DNA from: a virus
Virus record (IMG/VR): IMGVR_UViG_3300046171_000011
Location: 1 to 54,446 of that record
Reading direction: 5' to 3' (one strand)
Length of the DNA: 54,446 nt
Below the pieces are notes generated by a model. It was not told the DNA's origin. It saw only the letters and a program-made list of their open reading frames with translations, and made no database searches. This document shows, one piece after another, positions 8,936 through 40,939 of the stretch. The translations under genes were made by a program, and so were the position numbers. Each line of letters opens with the position of its first letter. Within the stretch, counting starts at the first letter, position 1.

Positions 8936-10124
8936 AGACTTCTATGATCAACATAAAGGTATACGGTGTCCCGACAAGATATTCACTAAGGATGTCCGTA
9001 AGATAAAGCAAGCACTAGACGCAGCTATGGAAGCATATGATGGAGACTTGTCTGCAGATGATTTACAGGCAGTGTTCAACCGTATGAACCAGAGCATGAC
9101 AACAGCCACACGTACAGCATACGACGATTTATTCAGACGTATCGGTAACGCACAACCAATCAAGGATGAGATAGCAGAGGACACATTGTCGCAGTTGTTT
9201 CAGCAACACGTAGGTGATCGTGTAGCTAACCTTGGCTTTGACTTTGTGAACGGTACAGAGAATAGTCTTGAGCCGCTACGTAGATTACTAGAGGATTACA
9301 AAGATGACTTTACTCCTAATCTCCGTGTTGAGTGGGATGACATTAGCATTGACACACTACTTACTGCCAACGATCTTGAAACCCAATGGAAGTTTAACAT
9401 TCCAAGTCTCCGTAGGAAGGTGGAAGGCGTTAGCGGTGGTCATCTGTTGTTGGTCGGCGCTCGTCCCAATACTGGTAAGACTTCTTTTCACGCATCCCTT
9501 ATAGCAGGTGCAGGTGGTTGGGCATCTCAAGGTGCTAAGTGTATTGTGTTGTGTAATGAAGAGAGTTATGAACGTGTAGGCTCACGCTACCTAAGTGCTG
9601 CATGTAACATGAATATGGATGAGGTGCGTCAGAATGTCGCATTAGCACGTAGTAGATACGAACCTGTGCGTAAGAACATACGCATCAAGGATAGCACTAA
9701 CAAAGATATGCAATGGGTTGAGGCTATTGTTAAGAATGAGAAGCCTGACATTGTAGTGCTAGACATGGGTGATAAGTTTGCTACAAAGAACACAGACAAG
9801 TCAGACATATATCTCAAGGATGCTGCGATACACGCACGTAACATTGCAAAGCAGTATAGCTGTTGTGTGATCTGGATGTCACAGCTATCTGCTGTAGCAG
9901 AAGGTAAGGTCTTTGTTGATCAGTCTATGATGGAAGGAAGTAAGACAGGCAAGGCAGCAGAGGCAGACCTGATGGTGTTAATATCTAAGAACCCTATGGT
10001 AGAAGGTGCAGATGAAGGAGATACACAACGGCACTTGAACATAGCAAAGAATAAACTAAAGGGTGGATACCATGGGGTCATTCACTGTGAGTTGGACGGT
10101 GGTAGATCACTATACACTGCATAG
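8898..10124 (+). CDS. Replicative DnaB-type helicase
   Basis: A 408-aa protein. The N-terminal helical domain (about residues 1-150) resembles the DnaB collar. The RecA-like C-terminal domain has Walker A in GARPNTGKTSF (about residue 190) and Walker B in DIVVLDMGDK (about residue 290). CVIWMSQLSAVAEGK is the motif following Walker B in DnaB helicases. It unwinds DNA 5'-3' as a hexamer at the phage fork and works with the separate primase at 6606. GAGGAAG upstream supports the start at 8898. Confidence 0.9.
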   Translation: MMELALVKTLLSRDFYDQHKGIRCPDKIFTKDVRKIKQALDAAMEAYDGDLSADDLQAVFNRMNQSMTTATRTAYDDLFRRIGNAQPIKDEIAEDTLSQLFQQHVGDRVANLGFDFVNGTENSLEPLRRLLEDYKDDFTPNLRVEWDDISIDTLLTANDLETQWKFNIPSLRRKVEGVSGGHLLLVGARPNTGKTSFHASLIAGAGGWASQGAKCIVLCNEESYERVGSRYLSAACNMNMDEVRQNVALARSRYEPVRKNIRIKDSTNKDMQWVEAIVKNEKPDIVVLDMGDKFATKNTDKSDIYLKDAAIHARNIAKQYSCCVIWMSQLSAVAEGKVFVDQSMMEGSKTGKAAEADLMVLISKNPMVEGADEGDTQRHLNIAKNKLKGGYHGVIHCELDGGRSLYTA

Positions 10125-33734: not shown

Positions 33735-35390
33735 TTAGGCTGCAATCTTGATAGTCTGTGTATTGTTGTTCTGTTTTGATAAGAACAACGTTCTATTTTG
33801 TGGGGCTATTACAACTGTGTTGTTGTTTCTTTCGGGTAGTAGGTAGACAGTTCTATTATCTGCTGTTACATTTACAGTTATTCTGTCATCCTCTGACACA
33901 AGTACAACAGCACGTTGTCTGCTGTATAGGTCTGCGTAAGGGGCAAAGTCAAATGTAACACCTGTCGCAGTAAGTTGTCCTAGTGCCACCTGTAATCCAA
34001 CAGATGTTAGACCTTGTGCTGCAGAGAAAGAAAGAAGTCCAATAGAACCTGTTGCAAAGACACTGTTTAAAACTTCACTAACTTTTGCCTCTAAACCACT
34101 TACTTCACCTTCGACAACTACACCTGTCAAAGTCGTAGAGTTACCAACCCCTAAAGAACCTACACTACCAGAAGCACTAACACCTGTTATTACTTTTGTT
34201 ATATTTGCTACAGGATTTAAAGTGTTTACTGTACCAGAGCTTTGTACCCCTGTCAGTGTTAAACTCACATTAGGTGACAGAGAGCCTATATTACCTGTAG
34301 CACTTACAGAGTTTAAGGCTTCTGATGTATCAGCAACTACAGAACCTAAAGCTGTTGTACCTACTACACTAGAAAGACTTTCTGAAATATTTACAGATAC
34401 AGTAGCTACAGCAACAGTAGAACTTACAGAGAGTAGTCTTTCTGATACATCAATTTCAAAACCGTTTATAGATACAGACGTTACTATACCTGTAGAAGAT
34501 ACTCCTGTAAGACCACTAGCTGTATGAGTTTGAAGTGTACCAACAGAACCAGAACTTTGTACACCAACAAGGTTTTCATTTACTTTAGGTTTTATTGTAC
34601 CTACAGAAGAACTTAATGCACTGCTTGAAATGGCTATATTAGAAGATGCAGTAGGTGTAAGTGTACCTACACCTGATGTAGAAGATACACCACTTAATTC
34701 TTCTGTAATATTTACTTGTACTGTGTTTATGTTAGTAGTAGAACTAACACTGTTTAATTTTTCAGAAGGTTTTACTTCTATTGTGCCTATAGAACCAGTA
34801 GCACTTAAACTAGAAAGAATAACAATTAAATCTGCTAGTGCAACTACACTTCCTACACTTGCGGTAGACCCAATGCCAGAAATACTTACACTAATGTTTT
34901 CTGTTACAGTATTTATTGAACCTGTAGCTGAAACACTAGTTAATGTAGTAGAGTTACCTACACTTACAGTATTTACTGCACCTGTAGATGAGATACCAGT
35001 TAATGCAGTGGAGTTACCTACACCTACAGTATTTATAGAACTTGTTCCAGAAGCACCAGTAAGTGTAACTGTATTGCTGTGTTCTAGTGTACCTATTGAG
35101 CCAGTACTTTGTACTGCTGTAGGTGTTACAGTTAGATTTACAGAGACTGAACTAATACCTGTTGTACCAGAAACACTGCCTAGCTTTTCTTCTGTATTAA
35201 AACTTATAGTTCCTACAGCACCAGTAGCACTTACAGACCCAAGTCTTTCCGAGATGTCAACTTCAAAGCCACCAACAGATAGACCTGCTACTGCAGTACT
35301 AGCAGAGACACTACCTAAAGAAACATCTGCAGATACAGATGAAGTTGCTACCCCAAAGGGAGCTTCAGATAGTGCCGTAAAACCAAACAT
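33735..35390 (-). CDS. Highly repetitive beta-structured virion protein, 551 aa
   Basis: From about residue 20 to 460 the protein consists of about 17 units of 22-26 aa on the theme L(x)SVS(A/S)TG(x)(V/I)(G/N)T(V/L). Examples are LGSVSATGAVGTISFN, TLTSVSATGSINTV and SLSATGSIGTIEV. The pattern suggests a beta-solenoid or stacked beta-sandwich shaft. The non-repetitive C-terminus ends with Asn/Thr-rich blocks (NNNTVVIAPQNRTLFLS). Probably an adhesin or tail spike-like element. Not assigned to a known family. Confidence 0.6.
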   Translation of the reverse strand: MFGFTALSEAPFGVATSSVSADVSLGSVSASTAVAGLSVGGFEVDISERLGSVSATGAVGTISFNTEEKLGSVSGTTGISSVSVNLTVTPTAVQSTGSIGTLEHSNTVTLTGASGTSSINTVGVGNSTALTGISSTGAVNTVSVGNSTTLTSVSATGSINTVTENISVSISGIGSTASVGSVVALADLIVILSSLSATGSIGTIEVKPSEKLNSVSSTTNINTVQVNITEELSGVSSTSGVGTLTPTASSNIAISSSALSSSVGTIKPKVNENLVGVQSSGSVGTLQTHTASGLTGVSSTGIVTSVSINGFEIDVSERLLSVSSTVAVATVSVNISESLSSVVGTTALGSVVADTSEALNSVSATGNIGSLSPNVSLTLTGVQSSGTVNTLNPVANITKVITGVSASGSVGSLGVGNSTTLTGVVVEGEVSGLEAKVSEVLNSVFATGSIGLLSFSAAQGLTSVGLQVALGQLTATGVTFDFAPYADLYSRQRAVVLVSEDDRITVNVTADNRTVYLLPERNNNTVVIAPQNRTLFLSKQNNNTQTIKIAA

Positions 35391-35413
35391 TAGCTAACCT
35401 TAACTATCGTCAT
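35391..35413 (-). other. Seven-codon minimal ORF joining two fibre genes
   Basis: The stop of the 141-aa gene (TGA, 35410-35412) overlaps an ATG at 35413 that reads only seven codons (MTIVKVS) before a stop. That stop overlaps the start of the next gene as TAATG. It may be a vestige of a deleted assembly-chaperone gene or just a coupling bridge. Its AAGG also serves as ribosome binding site for the 551-aa gene. Confidence 0.35.
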
Positions 35414-35835
35414 GCTAAGTCTCCGTGTGCGTTAAATGCTGCATAAGGATAATCTTGTATGCCAGATGCCGTTGGGCTTGAATAAACTGTAATCAATCTA
35501 GCACTGCTTGCTGTTACAGCACTGTTTTCTCTAGGCTGAACATTATAGGCGTAAGTTGTTATAGCCGATCCAAAAGCAAAAGTACCGCCGATTTGGTAAT
35601 TAGCACTGCCAAAATTGTTAGTGTAAGCAAAAGTATAATCACCACTACCATTGTCAGTCAAACCACTGATGCCAAGGCTGTCACGAATAGAAGGGGAGGT
35701 TGATGTTTCAACACTACCCCCATTCCAACAGCACCAAGCCTTTGCAGCCCCATTGACCACAATGCTAGTGCCGACTGTTGTCGTACCATCGGTTACATTG
35801 TGTTGAAACTGAGATAGGTTTAAAGCCCTTCCCAT
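35410..35835 (-). CDS. Tail fibre paralogue 1, 141 aa
   Basis: Contains NVTDGTTTVGTSIVVNGAA and KAWCCW, shared with the paralogue at 36615. The middle reads SLGISGLTDNGSGDYTFAYT. The C-terminus ends AHGDLA. The family (start, KAW block, then S(V/I)xSLTDNGxGDxTxxYTN) is common in marine phage tail fibres. Likely a receptor-binding or fibre-tip subunit. Confidence 0.6.
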   Translation of the reverse strand: MGRALNLSQFQHNVTDGTTTVGTSIVVNGAAKAWCCWNGGSVETSTSPSIRDSLGISGLTDNGSGDYTFAYTNNFGSANYQIGGTFAFGSAITTYAYNVQPRENSAVTASSARLITVYSSPTASGIQDYPYAAFNAHGDLA

Positions 35836-35836
35836 A

Positions 35837-36184
35837 CTACTCTCCTAGCAAAGTAGTCAAGTTCAATGCTTTCAACGCATCGGGTGTGCTTGCTCCTGCA
35901 ATACGACTGTCTGCTGTGATGTCACGAAGAGTTGCCTTTTGTGTGGCAATAGCATCTGCACCTGACCCTGCTTCCAGAGCTTTCATGTAAGACACATCTA
36001 ACGCTTCAAGCCGTGGTTTTCGTTCTGCACGAAGATTGTCTTTGTGAATATCTCTGGCCTTAGCCATGTCCACTTCAATGACGGCCTCATTGTAAGTCCA
36101 TGCCCCACGAAATGTACGATCTGTAGGTACGGTAAGGGATGCCGCATCACGAACATCCCCATTGATGTTAATATAAGTTGTCAT
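35837..36184 (-). CDS. Putative tail fibre assembly chaperone, 115 aa
   Basis: Contains LTVPTDRTFRGAWTYNEAVI, which matches VPSDRSFRNAWKINQEA in the 145-aa gene upstream. After this block the protein is helical and charged (RAERKPRLEALDVSYMKAL), a layout like phage tail fibre assembly proteins. It sits between two fibre paralogues, as these chaperones usually do. Confidence 0.55.
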   Translation of the reverse strand: MTTYININGDVRDAASLTVPTDRTFRGAWTYNEAVIEVDMAKARDIHKDNLRAERKPRLEALDVSYMKALEAGSGADAIATQKATLRDITADSRIAGASTPDALKALNLTTLLGE

Positions 36185-36618
36185 GCTGCAATCCTTTCGT
36201 CAGCTTCTTGATTAATCTTCCAAGCATTTCTAAATGATCTGTCACTTGGAACTAGTTCAACAGGTACAATCTTCATAATTGTTCTGTTTCCTTTGTAATC
36301 TCTCCATATGCTCGGACAGATGTCCTTTTGAATGAGATACTCCACGCTTTGCTCTTCGGTCATAGGGCCAATGGGTTCTGCGTATGGATGCTCTTTTGGC
36401 TCTCCGTCTGGCACAAGTCTGTCACGTTGATATGTGTCTATCGGTGGCAGGATGTTGCCCTCTAGTGCCGCAGCCATCCAATTCGGATCAGGCACAAGCA
36501 CCTTGGCAGGTTCGTCAGGTGCAGAAGGGTCTTCAAAAACGACACGATACTTAGACTGAACTGGCGCAAGACGGCTCTTAGCTTCGGCTAGTCTATCCCA
36601 TAGGTGTTCGTGGGTCAT
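36181..36618 (-). CDS. Putative tail fibre assembly chaperone, 145 aa
   Basis: Ends with a VPSDRSFRNAWKINQEADE block shared with the 115-aa gene next to it; the N-terminal part has a Pro-rich loop (VFEDPSAPDEPAKVLVPDP). Coupled by ATGA at both ends. Role inferred from the shared block and position between fibre genes. Confidence 0.55.
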   Translation of the reverse strand: MTHEHLWDRLAEAKSRLAPVQSKYRVVFEDPSAPDEPAKVLVPDPNWMAAALEGNILPPIDTYQRDRLVPDGEPKEHPYAEPIGPMTEEQSVEYLIQKDICPSIWRDYKGNRTIMKIVPVELVPSDRSFRNAWKINQEADERIAA

Positions 36619-37010
36619 GCTAAGTCTCCGTGGATTGTAACTTGCCCCTTATGTGAGTCATAAAAATCACTACTTGAATGGTCTGCGTATACGTTTCTAA
36701 AATACCATTTTGAAACTGTTCTATTTGCGTAACCTGTAGCATCAGCAAGAGTTACACAATAAGACCCCAAACTCGAAACATAAGTAGTTTGAGATGGGGA
36801 GGTATACAATGTGTTGGACATTGCACTTGTCCAATTTAAATCACCTTGACCATTTGAGCTATCGGTTAAGCTGCTTGTGTTAATACTGTCTGATATTGCG
36901 GGGGTCTGTTGATTGAAAGTACACCAAGCCTTAGCTGACCCATTGACCACATAGCTTGTGCCGACTGTTGTTGTGCCATCGGTGATGTTGGAAACGCTAA
37001 GGGTACTCAT
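36615..37010 (-). CDS. Tail fibre paralogue 2, 131 aa
   Basis: N-terminus STLSVSNITDGTTTVGTSYV and SAKAWCTF are shared with paralogue 1. The middle carries the SLTDSSNGQGDLNW variant of the family block. The C-terminus ends TIHGDLA. The DNA coding for the last residues, GGAGACTTAGCATGA, doubles as ribosome binding site and overlapping start for the next gene. Confidence 0.6.
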   Translation of the reverse strand: MSTLSVSNITDGTTTVGTSYVVNGSAKAWCTFNQQTPAISDSINTSSLTDSSNGQGDLNWTSAMSNTLYTSPSQTTYVSSLGSYCVTLADATGYANRTVSKWYFRNVYADHSSSDFYDSHKGQVTIHGDLA

Positions 37011-37375
37011 GCTAAGTCTCCCAAGGCTAAGAACTGTGCCGTAGTGTCTATTAATGAACTGCTATTATTGTATTGCACCGAATAATGAGCAGTTGTGCTA
37101 CTGTTACAATAAATAAATGCTCCACCGCCATGTGACCAAGAACTTATCCCACGGTTCTGTCCTGCACCACCCAAAGCTGGATTTGCAAAGTTGTTTGTAT
37201 AATTAAACTGCTTACCGCTTGTCCCATTGTCCGTCACCGAACTTACGTTGAATGACCCTGTTGCTGTTATTGATCCCGCAGCATCACAGTCGCCAAAAGC
37301 ACCCGCAACCCCTGACACTGCACGACTAGCTGTTTCCCCTGTCTTTTTGATGTTGGTGACCGTTAGTGTGCTCAT
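37007..37375 (-). CDS. Tail fibre paralogue 3, 122 aa
   Basis: N-terminus STLTVTNIKKTGETASRAVS; the family block reads SVTDNGTSGKQFNYTNNF; ends LALGDLA. More divergent than the other copies in the KAW region, where it has AGAFGDCDAAGSI. Coupled by ATGA at both ends. Confidence 0.6.
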   Translation of the reverse strand: MSTLTVTNIKKTGETASRAVSGVAGAFGDCDAAGSITATGSFNVSSVTDNGTSGKQFNYTNNFANPALGGAGQNRGISSWSHGGGAFIYCNSSTTAHYSVQYNNSSSLIDTTAQFLALGDLA

Positions 37376-37752
37376 GCTAGGTCTCCGTGGAATGTATGGG
37401 TCATAAGGTCACAATCTGCTCTGCCGCCATTGTCATATTTATTATGAATTATTTTTATTGCACTAGCTGTAACAGTTCCGTCTATATTTGCTATGGTTGG
37501 GAAAGCTGTAGAAGTTTGACGTTTTGTTAAGGCTGCTCCTGTGTAATTTGCACTGTCAAAAGCACTCGTAAAATTTGTTGTGTTTTCTCCTACCGCATTA
37601 TCAACAAGAGAAGCCACGCCAAAACTGTTGTTAATTGAGATCGTTCCCGACCCATCAAAATTAACCCAAGCCTTCGCAGCACTCTGCTTCGTCAGTGTAA
37701 CAGGGTCAGTGCCATTGGCAGCGCTTATCGTATTTGCTCGTAATTCAGACAA
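37372..37752 (-). CDS. Tail fibre paralogue 4, 126 aa
   Basis: Starts with TTG at 37752 (MSELRANTISAANGTDPV), preceded by GGAGGGA; the start fits the well-known MSELRxNTIS form of marine phage fibres. KQSAAKAWVNFDG and SLVDNAVGENTTNF are the family blocks. Ends FHGDLA. Confidence 0.6.
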   Translation of the reverse strand: MSELRANTISAANGTDPVTLTKQSAAKAWVNFDGSGTISINNSFGVASLVDNAVGENTTNFTSAFDSANYTGAALTKRQTSTAFPTIANIDGTVTASAIKIIHNKYDNGGRADCDLMTHTFHGDLA

Positions 37753-38206
37753 TGGACAAGTTCCCTCCGCTTGTGACAGTCAGAGTGACACCTGATGCAA
37801 TGGCTAGTGGGCCTACTGCTGTGGCGTTTTCATCTGCGTCGATAGTGACGTTTGTGTTTAGGGTTTGCTCATTGATGCGGAAGATGTCACCTGCACCTGA
37901 TGCTGCACCGACTGTGCCACGTTCACCTTTATAGTAGCCACCGCCCGACGATCCGCTTTCAAATGTGTTAAAGGCAACAACTTCTACATAATCACCAACA
38001 GTCAAACCAGAAGCCATGACCACATCTGAGCCATTGCTTGCTGTGTAGTCTGTGCCGTTTTTCAGGTGTGAACCATTAACGTAAACATCTAAGAAAGACG
38101 GTGTATAACCTGATGTGGCAAAGGTTGTCTGTGATGCTGTAGCTGTGAAGACATCCCTTGTCTGTGAAGCCTGTGGGACAGGTGTTGTGCCGATGTATCC
38201 ACTCAT
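37745..38206 (-). CDS. Tail fibre-associated protein, 153 aa
   Basis: N-terminus SGYIGTTPVPQASQTRDVFT and FLDVYVNGSHLKNGTDYTAS are a widespread block in marine phage fibre proteins, probably a small beta-sandwich. A Gly-rich hinge (GSSGGGYYKGERG) precedes the C-terminal part, which ends TLTVTSGGNLSIV. Coupled to paralogue 4 by overlap. Confidence 0.6.
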   Translation of the reverse strand: MSGYIGTTPVPQASQTRDVFTATASQTTFATSGYTPSFLDVYVNGSHLKNGTDYTASNGSDVVMASGLTVGDYVEVVAFNTFESGSSGGGYYKGERGTVGAASGAGDIFRINEQTLNTNVTIDADENATAVGPLAIASGVTLTVTSGGNLSIV

Positions 38207-38561: not shown

Positions 38562-39323
38562 CTATGCGACCAAGAAGCCGCTGAACTTGGTTGTTGCGTT
38601 GATTTCTGTCTGGGCAGTTCCGTTGGGAACGGTAAAGGAAACATAAGCTGTATCGTTGGCATCCATGTCAGCGAGGATTGACGCATTGATGAACATATAC
38701 CCATTATCTTGTCCGTAGTCTGGATCAAAGATTGAGTAATAACCTCTGTTTGAGGTCATAATAGTTGCCTCGTAGTAATTGGAAGCACTGTCCAGATTGT
38801 CTAAATAAACCATAATGCTCAACTGGTACTTGCCAGTCACAGGGGCAGTGAAAGTATTGGACGCAAAGTTTGAACCTTGGTCAAAAACTTCTGTGTCAAA
38901 ACTAATGGTGGTAGTGCCATTAGGCATGTTATATTGATGACCGCTTTTGGTGACTTGAAATGCGGGTTGCTTGGGCTGAGTTATAATCCCATTTCCTTGG
39001 ACTGCGAACAAATCATTTGAACCGTCATGGTCAGTGATATAAAAGGCGTAGTCTGTTGTTGACCCTGCCATAATTTTAAGGCCGTAACTTCTCGCATCTG
39101 TCGCTTCAGCGTTCTGAATAATCGCAACCCACTTATCATCCCCACTTAAACCAGAGCCATCTGTTGATGTTTTGATATGCAATGGGTGTGACGGAGATGT
39201 GCCAATGCCAATACTGCCAGTAAAAGTATCACCTGTCACATTAGCATAACGGCTCTCTGCTTCTGTCTGCGTGTAACCATCAACTTGAACAACGGCTGCT
39301 TTTGAACCAATGTATCCTGCCAT
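38562..39323 (-). CDS. Tail fibre with C1q-like tip, 253 aa
   Basis: The N-terminus has GYIGSKAAVVQVDGYTQTEA and ANVTGDTFTGSIGIGTSP, a fibre-shaft start seen in many marine phages. The last ~130 aa (PAFQVTKSGHQYNMPNG onward, with FTAPVTGKYQLSIMVYL) match the C1q/TNF-like jelly roll, a trimeric receptor-binding fold. Likely binds a host surface sugar or protein. Confidence 0.65.
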   Translation of the reverse strand: MAGYIGSKAAVVQVDGYTQTEAESRYANVTGDTFTGSIGIGTSPSHPLHIKTSTDGSGLSGDDKWVAIIQNAEATDARSYGLKIMAGSTTDYAFYITDHDGSNDLFAVQGNGIITQPKQPAFQVTKSGHQYNMPNGTTTISFDTEVFDQGSNFASNTFTAPVTGKYQLSIMVYLDNLDSASNYYEATIMTSNRGYYSIFDPDYGQDNGYMFINASILADMDANDTAYVSFTVPNGTAQTEINATTKFSGFLVA

Positions 39324-39670: not shown

Positions 39671-40939
39671 TTATCCTAATGCTATTGCTAATGCTGTAGC
39701 TTCGTCTGCGGCTGCGGCTGCTGTTGTAAGTGTTGAGACATCTTTCCCATCTACAGTTCCTGAGACAGTGATGTTGCCAGTTACGTCTACACCTGTGGCA
39801 CTTGTCTGAAATTTGATTGCATTGTTATGGTATAAGTAAGCTGCACCATCAGCCTCAAAGTACCCCATCGTTTCGCCAGTGTACTTTCCAATAGTAACAT
39901 TACTGTTTCCACGCAGAATTAAAGCACCTGTGCCAGTATCGTCTACATAACTATCAGACCCATTATGGTAAATCTGTAGGTCAGACCCTGCGCCAAAGAT
40001 AGCCTTGTCATTGTCGCCAAAACTAACATCATCAGTAAACGTTCCACCTGACTTAGGCATAGCAGCATCAGCCGTAGAACCTTGTGCAGCAGTTGCATAA
40101 TCAGAACTATCAAAGGCTTTGACTTGAGCAAGGTTAGTTACCTCACTGTCCATCAAAGCTCCTGCAGAAGTTACGTTGGCTGTATCAGTTACATCAGCAG
40201 ATGCTTCAATACCATTGAGCTTAGTGTGGTCTGCATCAGTAAATACATTAGAGTCTGAGGCTGCTTCTACTGCCGCCCTTATTTCGGCATCAGTTTGATC
40301 TGCCGTAGCACTTGCTTCGATACCATTTAGCTTAGTGTGGTCATCATCTGTAAATACATTTGAATCACTAGCAGCTTCAACTGCTGCTCTTATCTCAGCA
40401 TTAGTTTGGTCTGCAGTGGCACTAGCCTCAATACCATTTAACTTAGTGTGATCAGCATCAGTGAAGACGTTACTGTCGGTTGCAGCTTCAACGGCGGCTC
40501 TTATCTCTGCGTTTGTCTGATCTGCAGTAGCACTAGCTTCAATACCGTCTAACTTAGTACCGTCTGTAGCAAGGTCACGTCCATCTATAGTGCCGGGAAT
40601 AGATATATTACCTGATGCATCTTCAAAGACTGCTTTATCTGCAGGATATGTTATAAATATATTTTTAGTACCTGCAGAAAGGTCTACAGCATTATTAGAA
40701 TTAGAGCTTGCTAAGATAGTAGTTCTAGCTAAAGTATTGCCACTACTAGTATAAGTACCAATACCTATTTCAAATTCGTTAGTATTGCCTTGTTGCTCAA
40801 TAGCATAGTAAGTGGTGTCGGCATTAGAAAGGGCAGAACTAAAGGTTTTAAACTTAGTTACTGCCCCGCCTAAAGAGATACTACCTGTACCTGTAGTTGT
40901 GGTTGTTTCTTTAACCCGATCTTTTACGACAAGTGCCAT
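39671..40939 (-). CDS. Tail fibre with four 36-aa repeats, 422 aa
   Basis: N-terminal about 110 aa is an anchor domain (GTGSISLGGAVTKFKTFSSA). From about residue 130 to 250 there are four near-identical units of the form LNGIEASATADQTNAEIRA followed by AVEAASDSNVFTDADHTK. The C-terminal half resembles a beta-helix with an AIKFQTSATGVDVTGNITVS segment. Likely a long tail fibre. Confidence 0.7.
   Translation of the reverse strand: MALVVKDRVKETTTTTGTGSISLGGAVTKFKTFSSALSNADTTYYAIEQQGNTNEFEIGIGTYTSSGNTLARTTILASSNSNNAVDLSAGTKNIFITYPADKAVFEDASGNISIPGTIDGRDLATDGTKLDGIEASATADQTNAEIRAAVEAATDSNVFTDADHTKLNGIEASATADQTNAEIRAAVEAASDSNVFTDDDHTKLNGIEASATADQTDAEIRAAVEAASDSNVFTDADHTKLNGIEASADVTDTANVTSAGALMDSEVTNLAQVKAFDSSDYATAAQGSTADAAMPKSGGTFTDDVSFGDNDKAIFGAGSDLQIYHNGSDSYVDDTGTGALILRGNSNVTIGKYTGETMGYFEADGAAYLYHNNAIKFQTSATGVDVTGNITVSGTVDGKDVSTLTTAAAAADEATALAIALG

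Follow-up and report, generated by a model that had tools for sequence, protein, structure and literature searches.

What is a repeated 15-nucleotide (nt) sequence doing at the end of every gene in a row of small tail fibre genes, and what, if anything, moves between its copies? The question is raised by positions 35,410 to 38,206 of a virus record of 54,446 bases (IMG/VR record IMGVR_UViG_3300046171_000011; this whole stretch is hereafter the window), where four short fibre genes on the minus strand (slots 1 to 4; Table 1) share such a 3' module. A sequence-only reading of this DNA had proposed that the module lets fibre genes be added, lost or swapped by recombination. Comparison with relatives points to a smaller unit: the row is probably a set of fixed slots whose tips are exchanged as DNA cassettes by homology-guided recombination at two boxes, the 3' module and a 5' box at the joint of stem and tip. 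In its capsid protein the window shares 72.7% identity with Roseobacter phage CRP-2 and 56.8% with HMO-2011; its gene set includes a family A DNA polymerase, ribonucleotide reductase, ThyX, a helicase, a Cas4-like exonuclease, endonucleases and a tyrosine integrase, and its structural genes lie on the minus strand in an order similar to that of HMO-2011-type phages. Family A DNA polymerase, ribonucleotide reductase, ThyX, endonuclease and, in some subgroups, integrase are traits of the HMO-2011-type group (PMC6918029, PMC9038755), and by capsid protein and gene content we assign the window to an uncultivated marine HMO-2011-type podovirus.

On the minus strand the module reads GGAGAC(T/C)TAGCATGA. 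Copies at 35410, 36615 and 37007 are exact and the copy at 37372 carries one mismatch, all on the minus strand where they had been reported, and each ends a small gene in GDLA. The only other matches in the window with up to 3 mismatches, at 9397 and 13513 (3 mismatches each), are both unrelated. The repeat is far above chance, because the same junction stands at nearly every comparable place in relatives, and every IMG/VR relative found with slot 3 has the module. The role first proposed for it, as Shine-Dalgarno and stop-start overlap for the next gene, is supported, but only the copies at 37372 and 37007 overlap the start of another fibre gene; the copy at 36615 leads into a non-fibre gene, and the ATG of that at 35410 opens only a 7-codon frame. 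The gene at 37745-38206, which lies inside the range first given for the row, ends without the module. We conclude that the module, judged by its sequence, combines a C-terminus, a Shine-Dalgarno-like site, a start codon, a stop-start overlap and a cassette boundary, and that it may couple translation of adjacent genes.

To describe the row across phages we used 682 GDLA-ending genes from 237 loci, with stem type defined by the first 20 residues and tips clustered at 60% protein identity. The 682 genes fall into 66 stem types and 561 tip clusters. Within the window's group, the next gene has in most cases stem 2 after stem 1 and stem 3 after stem 2, and is the 145-amino-acid (aa) gene after stem 3; three slots with stem types in the same order are present in all 12 distinct loci that have both flanking markers. 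Since these loci agree in the number and order of their slots (12/12), and each stem retains its own next gene, the genes are not shuffled and we reject whole-gene gain, loss and re-ordering. Only the tip domain changes places, between the 9-nt 5' box AAGGCTTGG (KAW), which the sequence-only reading had not described, and the 3' module. Tips with 93-100% DNA identity are found on unrelated stems and ahead of unrelated genes, and of the 88 tip clusters with several members, 49 include more than one stem type. Among 113 gene pairs with a common tip at ≥80% DNA identity, the stems are below 60% in 32, the next genes below 60% in 47 and both in 29; same-tip pairs share loci and are not all independent, and a few of the 47 are touched by contig ends. 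The window itself supplies examples: the slot 2 tip recurs in slot 3 of locus L166 (97% DNA identity), the C-terminal end of the same tip is also found in a fourth-slot gene of L013, and the slot 4 tip recurs in slot 3 of L012 (98% DNA identity). Elsewhere, an identical tip occupies one slot of L063 and another slot of L066.

A fibre with a variable C-terminal domain and a conserved end fits the pattern of a diversity-generating retroelement, but such an element almost certainly does not vary these tips: they differ in length and over their whole sequence, one and the same tip is seen in other slots with hardly any change, and no reverse transcriptase (RVT_1) was found in the record. Chimeric metagenome assembly is a second way in which apparent swaps could arise, given that nearly all of the loci are metagenome contigs and that stems common to strains are repeats able to mislead assemblers. 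We consider it extremely unlikely as the source of the swaps. Contigs from at least three samples (L019, L027, L170) have the tip SRLVFNIHGDLA on a slot 2 stem, and in L004 it occupies slot 1; moreover, at 15 nt the module falls below the word length that assemblers usually work with. A replaced row is also seen in complete isolate genomes: Nsp-JY18 and Mel-JY33 are ~96% identical on both sides, up to shortly after the slot 1 KAW and from where the next conserved gene starts, with a largely different row between these flanks, which supports the row as a hypervariable island independently of metagenome assembly.

The edges of the exchanged segments bear on how tips are replaced. In same-tip pairs, identity mostly starts at KAW or a few codons away, further upstream if the stems are related, and usually stops 0-2 nt past the stop. 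In recent swaps, where loci with 93-99.8% identical flanks differ by one replaced tip, identity returns exactly at the first G of GGAGAC in 8 distinct pairs; a ninth regains it 3 nt before that base. Marker bases give the same placement. Pairs with the same slot and different tips (n = 73) match in 25, 28 and 25 cases at positions -18, -17 and -16 (0.34-0.38; random 0.31-0.40), at 0.75-0.85 from -10 to -7 (random 0.51-0.72; 55/73 at -9 and 57/73 at -7) and in 73/73 at -2, while pairs with the same tip in different slots match in 24/25 at -18 (0.96), dropping to 17/25 at -2 (0.68). Bases just 5' of the module track the tip and those at its 3' end track the slot, and these opposite linkages within the module mean that crossovers fall inside the 15 bases. 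The earlier proposal that the module marks a recombination boundary is thus borne out, with exchanges ending inside it.

A protein model of slot 3 places a domain between the same two boxes. AlphaFold2 predicts for slot 3 (mean predicted local distance difference test score, pLDDT, 81) a beta-rich domain at residues 28-127, from KAW to just before GDLA; the slot 2 model is poor (mean pLDDT 68), with its last strand running into GDL. Foldseek gave no usable solved structure in the PDB (best E 0.33), and a profile search of PDB sequences gave no matches; against viral models, 48 matches were obtained at E ≤ 0.001, including tail fibres of the marine phages Syn5, S-TIM5 and ACG-2014f. No member of the gp37/gp38 family is among the PHROG matches of the four slot proteins, and a Pfam search of them gave no match to any family. 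The viral fold matches and the tail fibre family to which the proteins belong suggest that the tips may bind host receptors.

The most serious alternative is that the module is conserved for its protein and translation roles alone, tips being exchanged by random illegitimate recombination and selection keeping those joints that fall at domain borders. In the structure prediction, KAW and the end of the last strand mark the domain border, and selection alone would place joints there too; GDLA-like ends persist despite differing DNA, and GGA is expected from the Shine-Dalgarno role. Silent sites, counted with one gene per tip cluster and set against codon use in gene bodies, go beyond this. The module's glycine codon is GGA in 548 of 561 genes (24% in gene bodies), GAC is used in 83% (33%), and the histidine preceding the module is encoded by CAC in 87% (38%). 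A ribosome binding site would be expected to contain GGA, but the encoded protein gives no reason for GAC or CAC; in the 5' box, which has no translation-start role, AAG is used in 60% against 37%. Bias at these silent positions without protein or obvious ribosome role, crossovers placed within the module by marker bases, and the same-base right boundary of the 8 recent pairs all speak against the alternative, as do orphan modules, whose ATG starts no gene nearby: the full sequence, GGA and GAC included, is kept in 5/5, though these genes are few, partly related and possibly recent. On balance we regard conservation by protein and translation roles alone as unlikely.

A codon-degenerate scan of viral contigs with the pattern GGNGAYYTNGCATGAGNAC returned at least 120 stretches; among the matches listed (120 stretches), ~113 are, by inspection, GDLA/MST junctions between small fibre-like genes. 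In ~85,000 prokaryote genomes, prophages included, GGAGACYTNGCATGAGTAC matched 10 times, never between fibre genes, which is about the number expected by chance by our estimate. Among isolates, HMO-2011 has five modules and Mel-JY33 two; the module is absent from the stretch examined in seven HMO-2011-type RCA phages (CRP-2, 603, 207, 13, 9, 345 and 1) and in HTVC033P. Another lineage (L068, L109, L129, L145) has, before the anchor, a gene that ends in ITAIG with a separate ribosome site rather than in GDLA. Relatives of the 145-aa gene also occur in L393, L394 and L396, named as a Nostoc phage, a Microcystis phage and a Dunaliella virus, and these host names may need to be re-checked.

This distribution bears on whether a site-specific recombinase, for example the phage's own tyrosine integrase, might act on the modules in the manner of a shufflon, in which, as in R64 pilV, a constant N-terminal part is joined to alternative C-terminal parts flanked by short repeats. 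Both the window and HMO-2011 encode a tyrosine recombinase, and variable C-terminal segments flanked by short repeats are present here as well. However, no PF00589 match was obtained in the complete genome of Mel-JY33, whose row is variable and contains modules; conversely, CRP-2 and CRP-207 encode the integrase but lack the module. Module copies are direct and every slot is a full gene; we saw no silent store of tips, no inverted store of alternative ends and no linked recombinase, and the same tip type occurs twice within one locus in only 1 of 237 loci. A recombinase acting on the modules is, in our judgment, very unlikely.

The module, the fixed slots, the mobile tips, the boundary positions and the silent-site bias can all be read directly from the sequences, and they point to homology-guided recombination as the cause. 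Each slot has a short N-terminal stem of ~25-40 residues and a downstream neighbour, both particular to that slot, and carries one exchangeable tip of ~85-100 residues, predicted to be a beta-rich domain like those of marine phage tail fibres. If tips are indeed exchanged at the two boxes, recombination between phages would replace them as DNA cassettes, with the 5' crossover usually in or close to the joint of stem and tip, where GCNAAGGCTTGG (AKAW) is common to many stems, or in a longer shared stretch where the stems are related, and with the 3' crossover inside GGAGAC(C/T)TNGCAT(G/A)A. The module carries GDLA, a Shine-Dalgarno core ~7 nt upstream of the next start and the stop-start overlap, so that any slot could receive the tip of any other with frame and next start intact. 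It is possible, though somewhat short of probable, that the two boxes are kept across many marine phages partly because they let tips recombine, as a shared exchange standard that opens one pool, hundreds of tips in size, to unrelated stems, the 3' box serving also as C-terminus, ribosome binding site and start codon.

Several observations weigh against recombination guided by the boxes. At 15 and 9 nt they are short for ordinary homologous recombination, and no recombinase is linked to them. Left edges of recent swaps are more spread than right edges, several lying away from KAW within the stem. The GAC and CAC bias might have another cause, such as initiation efficiency. GDLA is kept as protein, with 104 of 133 genes before the anchor ending in it, and some of the remaining ends (GELA, GNLA, GDMA, GVLA, GGLA) are GDLA-like with altered DNA, so that the conservation is due in part to constraints on protein and translation; GDLA likely has a protein role too. 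Nsp-JY18 lacks the module although its row varies, so exchange there is not module-bounded and the module is not required for tip variation. Finally, the swap evidence comes mostly from metagenome contigs, and with loci shared among pairs the independent events are fewer than the pair counts.

Table 1. Features of the fibre row and related genes in the window
Feature	Position	Strand	Description
Tyrosine integrase	5708-6625	+	counterparts in HMO-2011, CRP-2, CRP-207
Slot 4 fibre gene	35410..35835	-	141 aa; stem MGRALNLSQFQHNVTDGTTTVGTSIVVNGAAKAW; PHROG 11355 E 4.2e-9
3' module copy 4	35410..35424	-	GGAGACTTAGCATGA; orphan, ATG opens 7-codon frame MTIVKVS* only
5' box slot 4	35734..35742	-	AAGGCTTGG (KAW)
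115-aa gene	35837..36184	-	weakly similar to tail fibre assembly proteins (phrog_4912 E 3e-4)
145-aa gene after slot 3	36181..36618	-	MTHEHLWDRLAEAK...; conserved row anchor in relatives
Slot 3 fibre gene	36615..37010	-	131 aa; stem MSTLSVSNITDGTTTVGTSYVVNGSAKAW; PHROG 11355 E 4.3e-12
3' module copy 3	36615..36629	-	GGAGACTTAGCATGA; overlaps start of non-fibre gene 36181-36618
5' box slot 3	36924..36932	-	AAGGCTTGG (KAW)
Slot 2 fibre gene	37007..37375	-	122 aa; stem MSTLTVTNIKKTGETASRAVSGVAGAF; PHROG 11355 E 7.4e-4
3' module copy 2	37007..37021	-	GGAGACTTAGCATGA; overlaps start of slot 3 fibre gene
5' box position slot 2	37295..37303	-	diverged: GGTGCTTTT (GAF)
Slot 1 fibre gene	37372..37752	-	126 aa; TTG start; stem MSELRANTISAANGTDPVTLTKQSAAKAW; PHROG 11355 'tail fiber protein' E 1.2e-15
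3' module copy 1	37372..37386	-	GGAGACCTAGCATGA; overlaps start of slot 2 fibre gene
5' box slot 1	37666..37674	-	AAGGCTTGG (KAW)
Gene before slot 1	37745..38206	-	YIGTTPVPQASQTRDVF...; second row anchor; ends without module

Around the row, the gene at 33735-35390 starts at its own TAATG, separate from the orphan module at 35410, and encodes a 551-aa protein (minus strand) of short degenerate repeats (SATGSIGTV-like) with no PHROG or Pfam match. In the relatives L011 (position 2016) and L013 (position 7517), the fourth-slot module likewise starts no fibre gene, its ATG opening a 13-codon frame before the next gene. No family match was found for the 145-aa gene, and the label 'chaperone-like' comes from its neighbour gene alone. 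Upstream of the row, a C1q-domain protein (PF00386) is encoded at 38562-39323 (minus strand), and in HMO-2011 one sits inside the row. The gene at 39671-40939 (minus strand, 422 aa) contains 3 direct 111-nt repeats at 40203-40558, with the unit ADQTNAEIRAAVEAA...FTDADHTKLNGIEASA. A head-tail connector or portal-type gene is apparently split, as the open reading frames at 47159-47824 and 48051-48815 (minus strand) match different parts of phrog_332. The tyrosine integrase suggests a possible temperate life.

Swapping of T-even adhesins at conserved motifs is said to have been described by Tetart, Desplats and Krisch in 1998 (J Mol Biol 282:543; cited in PMC6466182). There, short conserved motifs bound variable tail fibre segments and recombination between the motifs swaps specificity, and in the row described here variable tips are likewise exchanged at short conserved motifs. 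T-even swapping involves one adhesin locus, whereas here tips move among at least three slots with non-homologous stems, and the 3' motif is also a C-terminus, ribosome binding site and next gene start. Motif-bounded adhesin swapping in T-even phages is the closest known kind, and the multi-slot form appears to be new. Lambdoid phages have short conserved boundary sequences at gene junctions where unrelated modules meet; unlike these, one module is here repeated many times in a single genome, and only a portion of a gene is exchanged.

Homologous recombination at boundary sequences has been named as a route to phage mosaicism (PMC6466182). RCA and SAR116 phages differ in their tail fibre genes (PMC6918029), and a paper on HMO-2011-type phages makes no mention of fibres (PMC9038755). 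Among close marine phages, tail fibre and C1q-domain genes under-recruit, with their C-terminal parts most variable, according to a report on metaviromic islands; in the sections consulted a defined cassette, boundary boxes and slots are not described, and the word 'recombination' is absent from the text (PMC3909814). A partial literature search yielded no earlier description of this array and no papers on stop-start or Shine-Dalgarno recombination boundaries.

The row makes it possible to test whether a single 15-nt sequence answers to protein, translation and recombination constraints together, and whether phages keep short homologies because these help recombination. If tips are standard plug-in parts with fixed ends, the boundary boxes alone would suffice to extract, count and follow them through viromes, and phage host range could be studied by tip content rather than by phage lineage. 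For the phages themselves, tip exchange at two boxes would offer a simple route to rapid change in host recognition.

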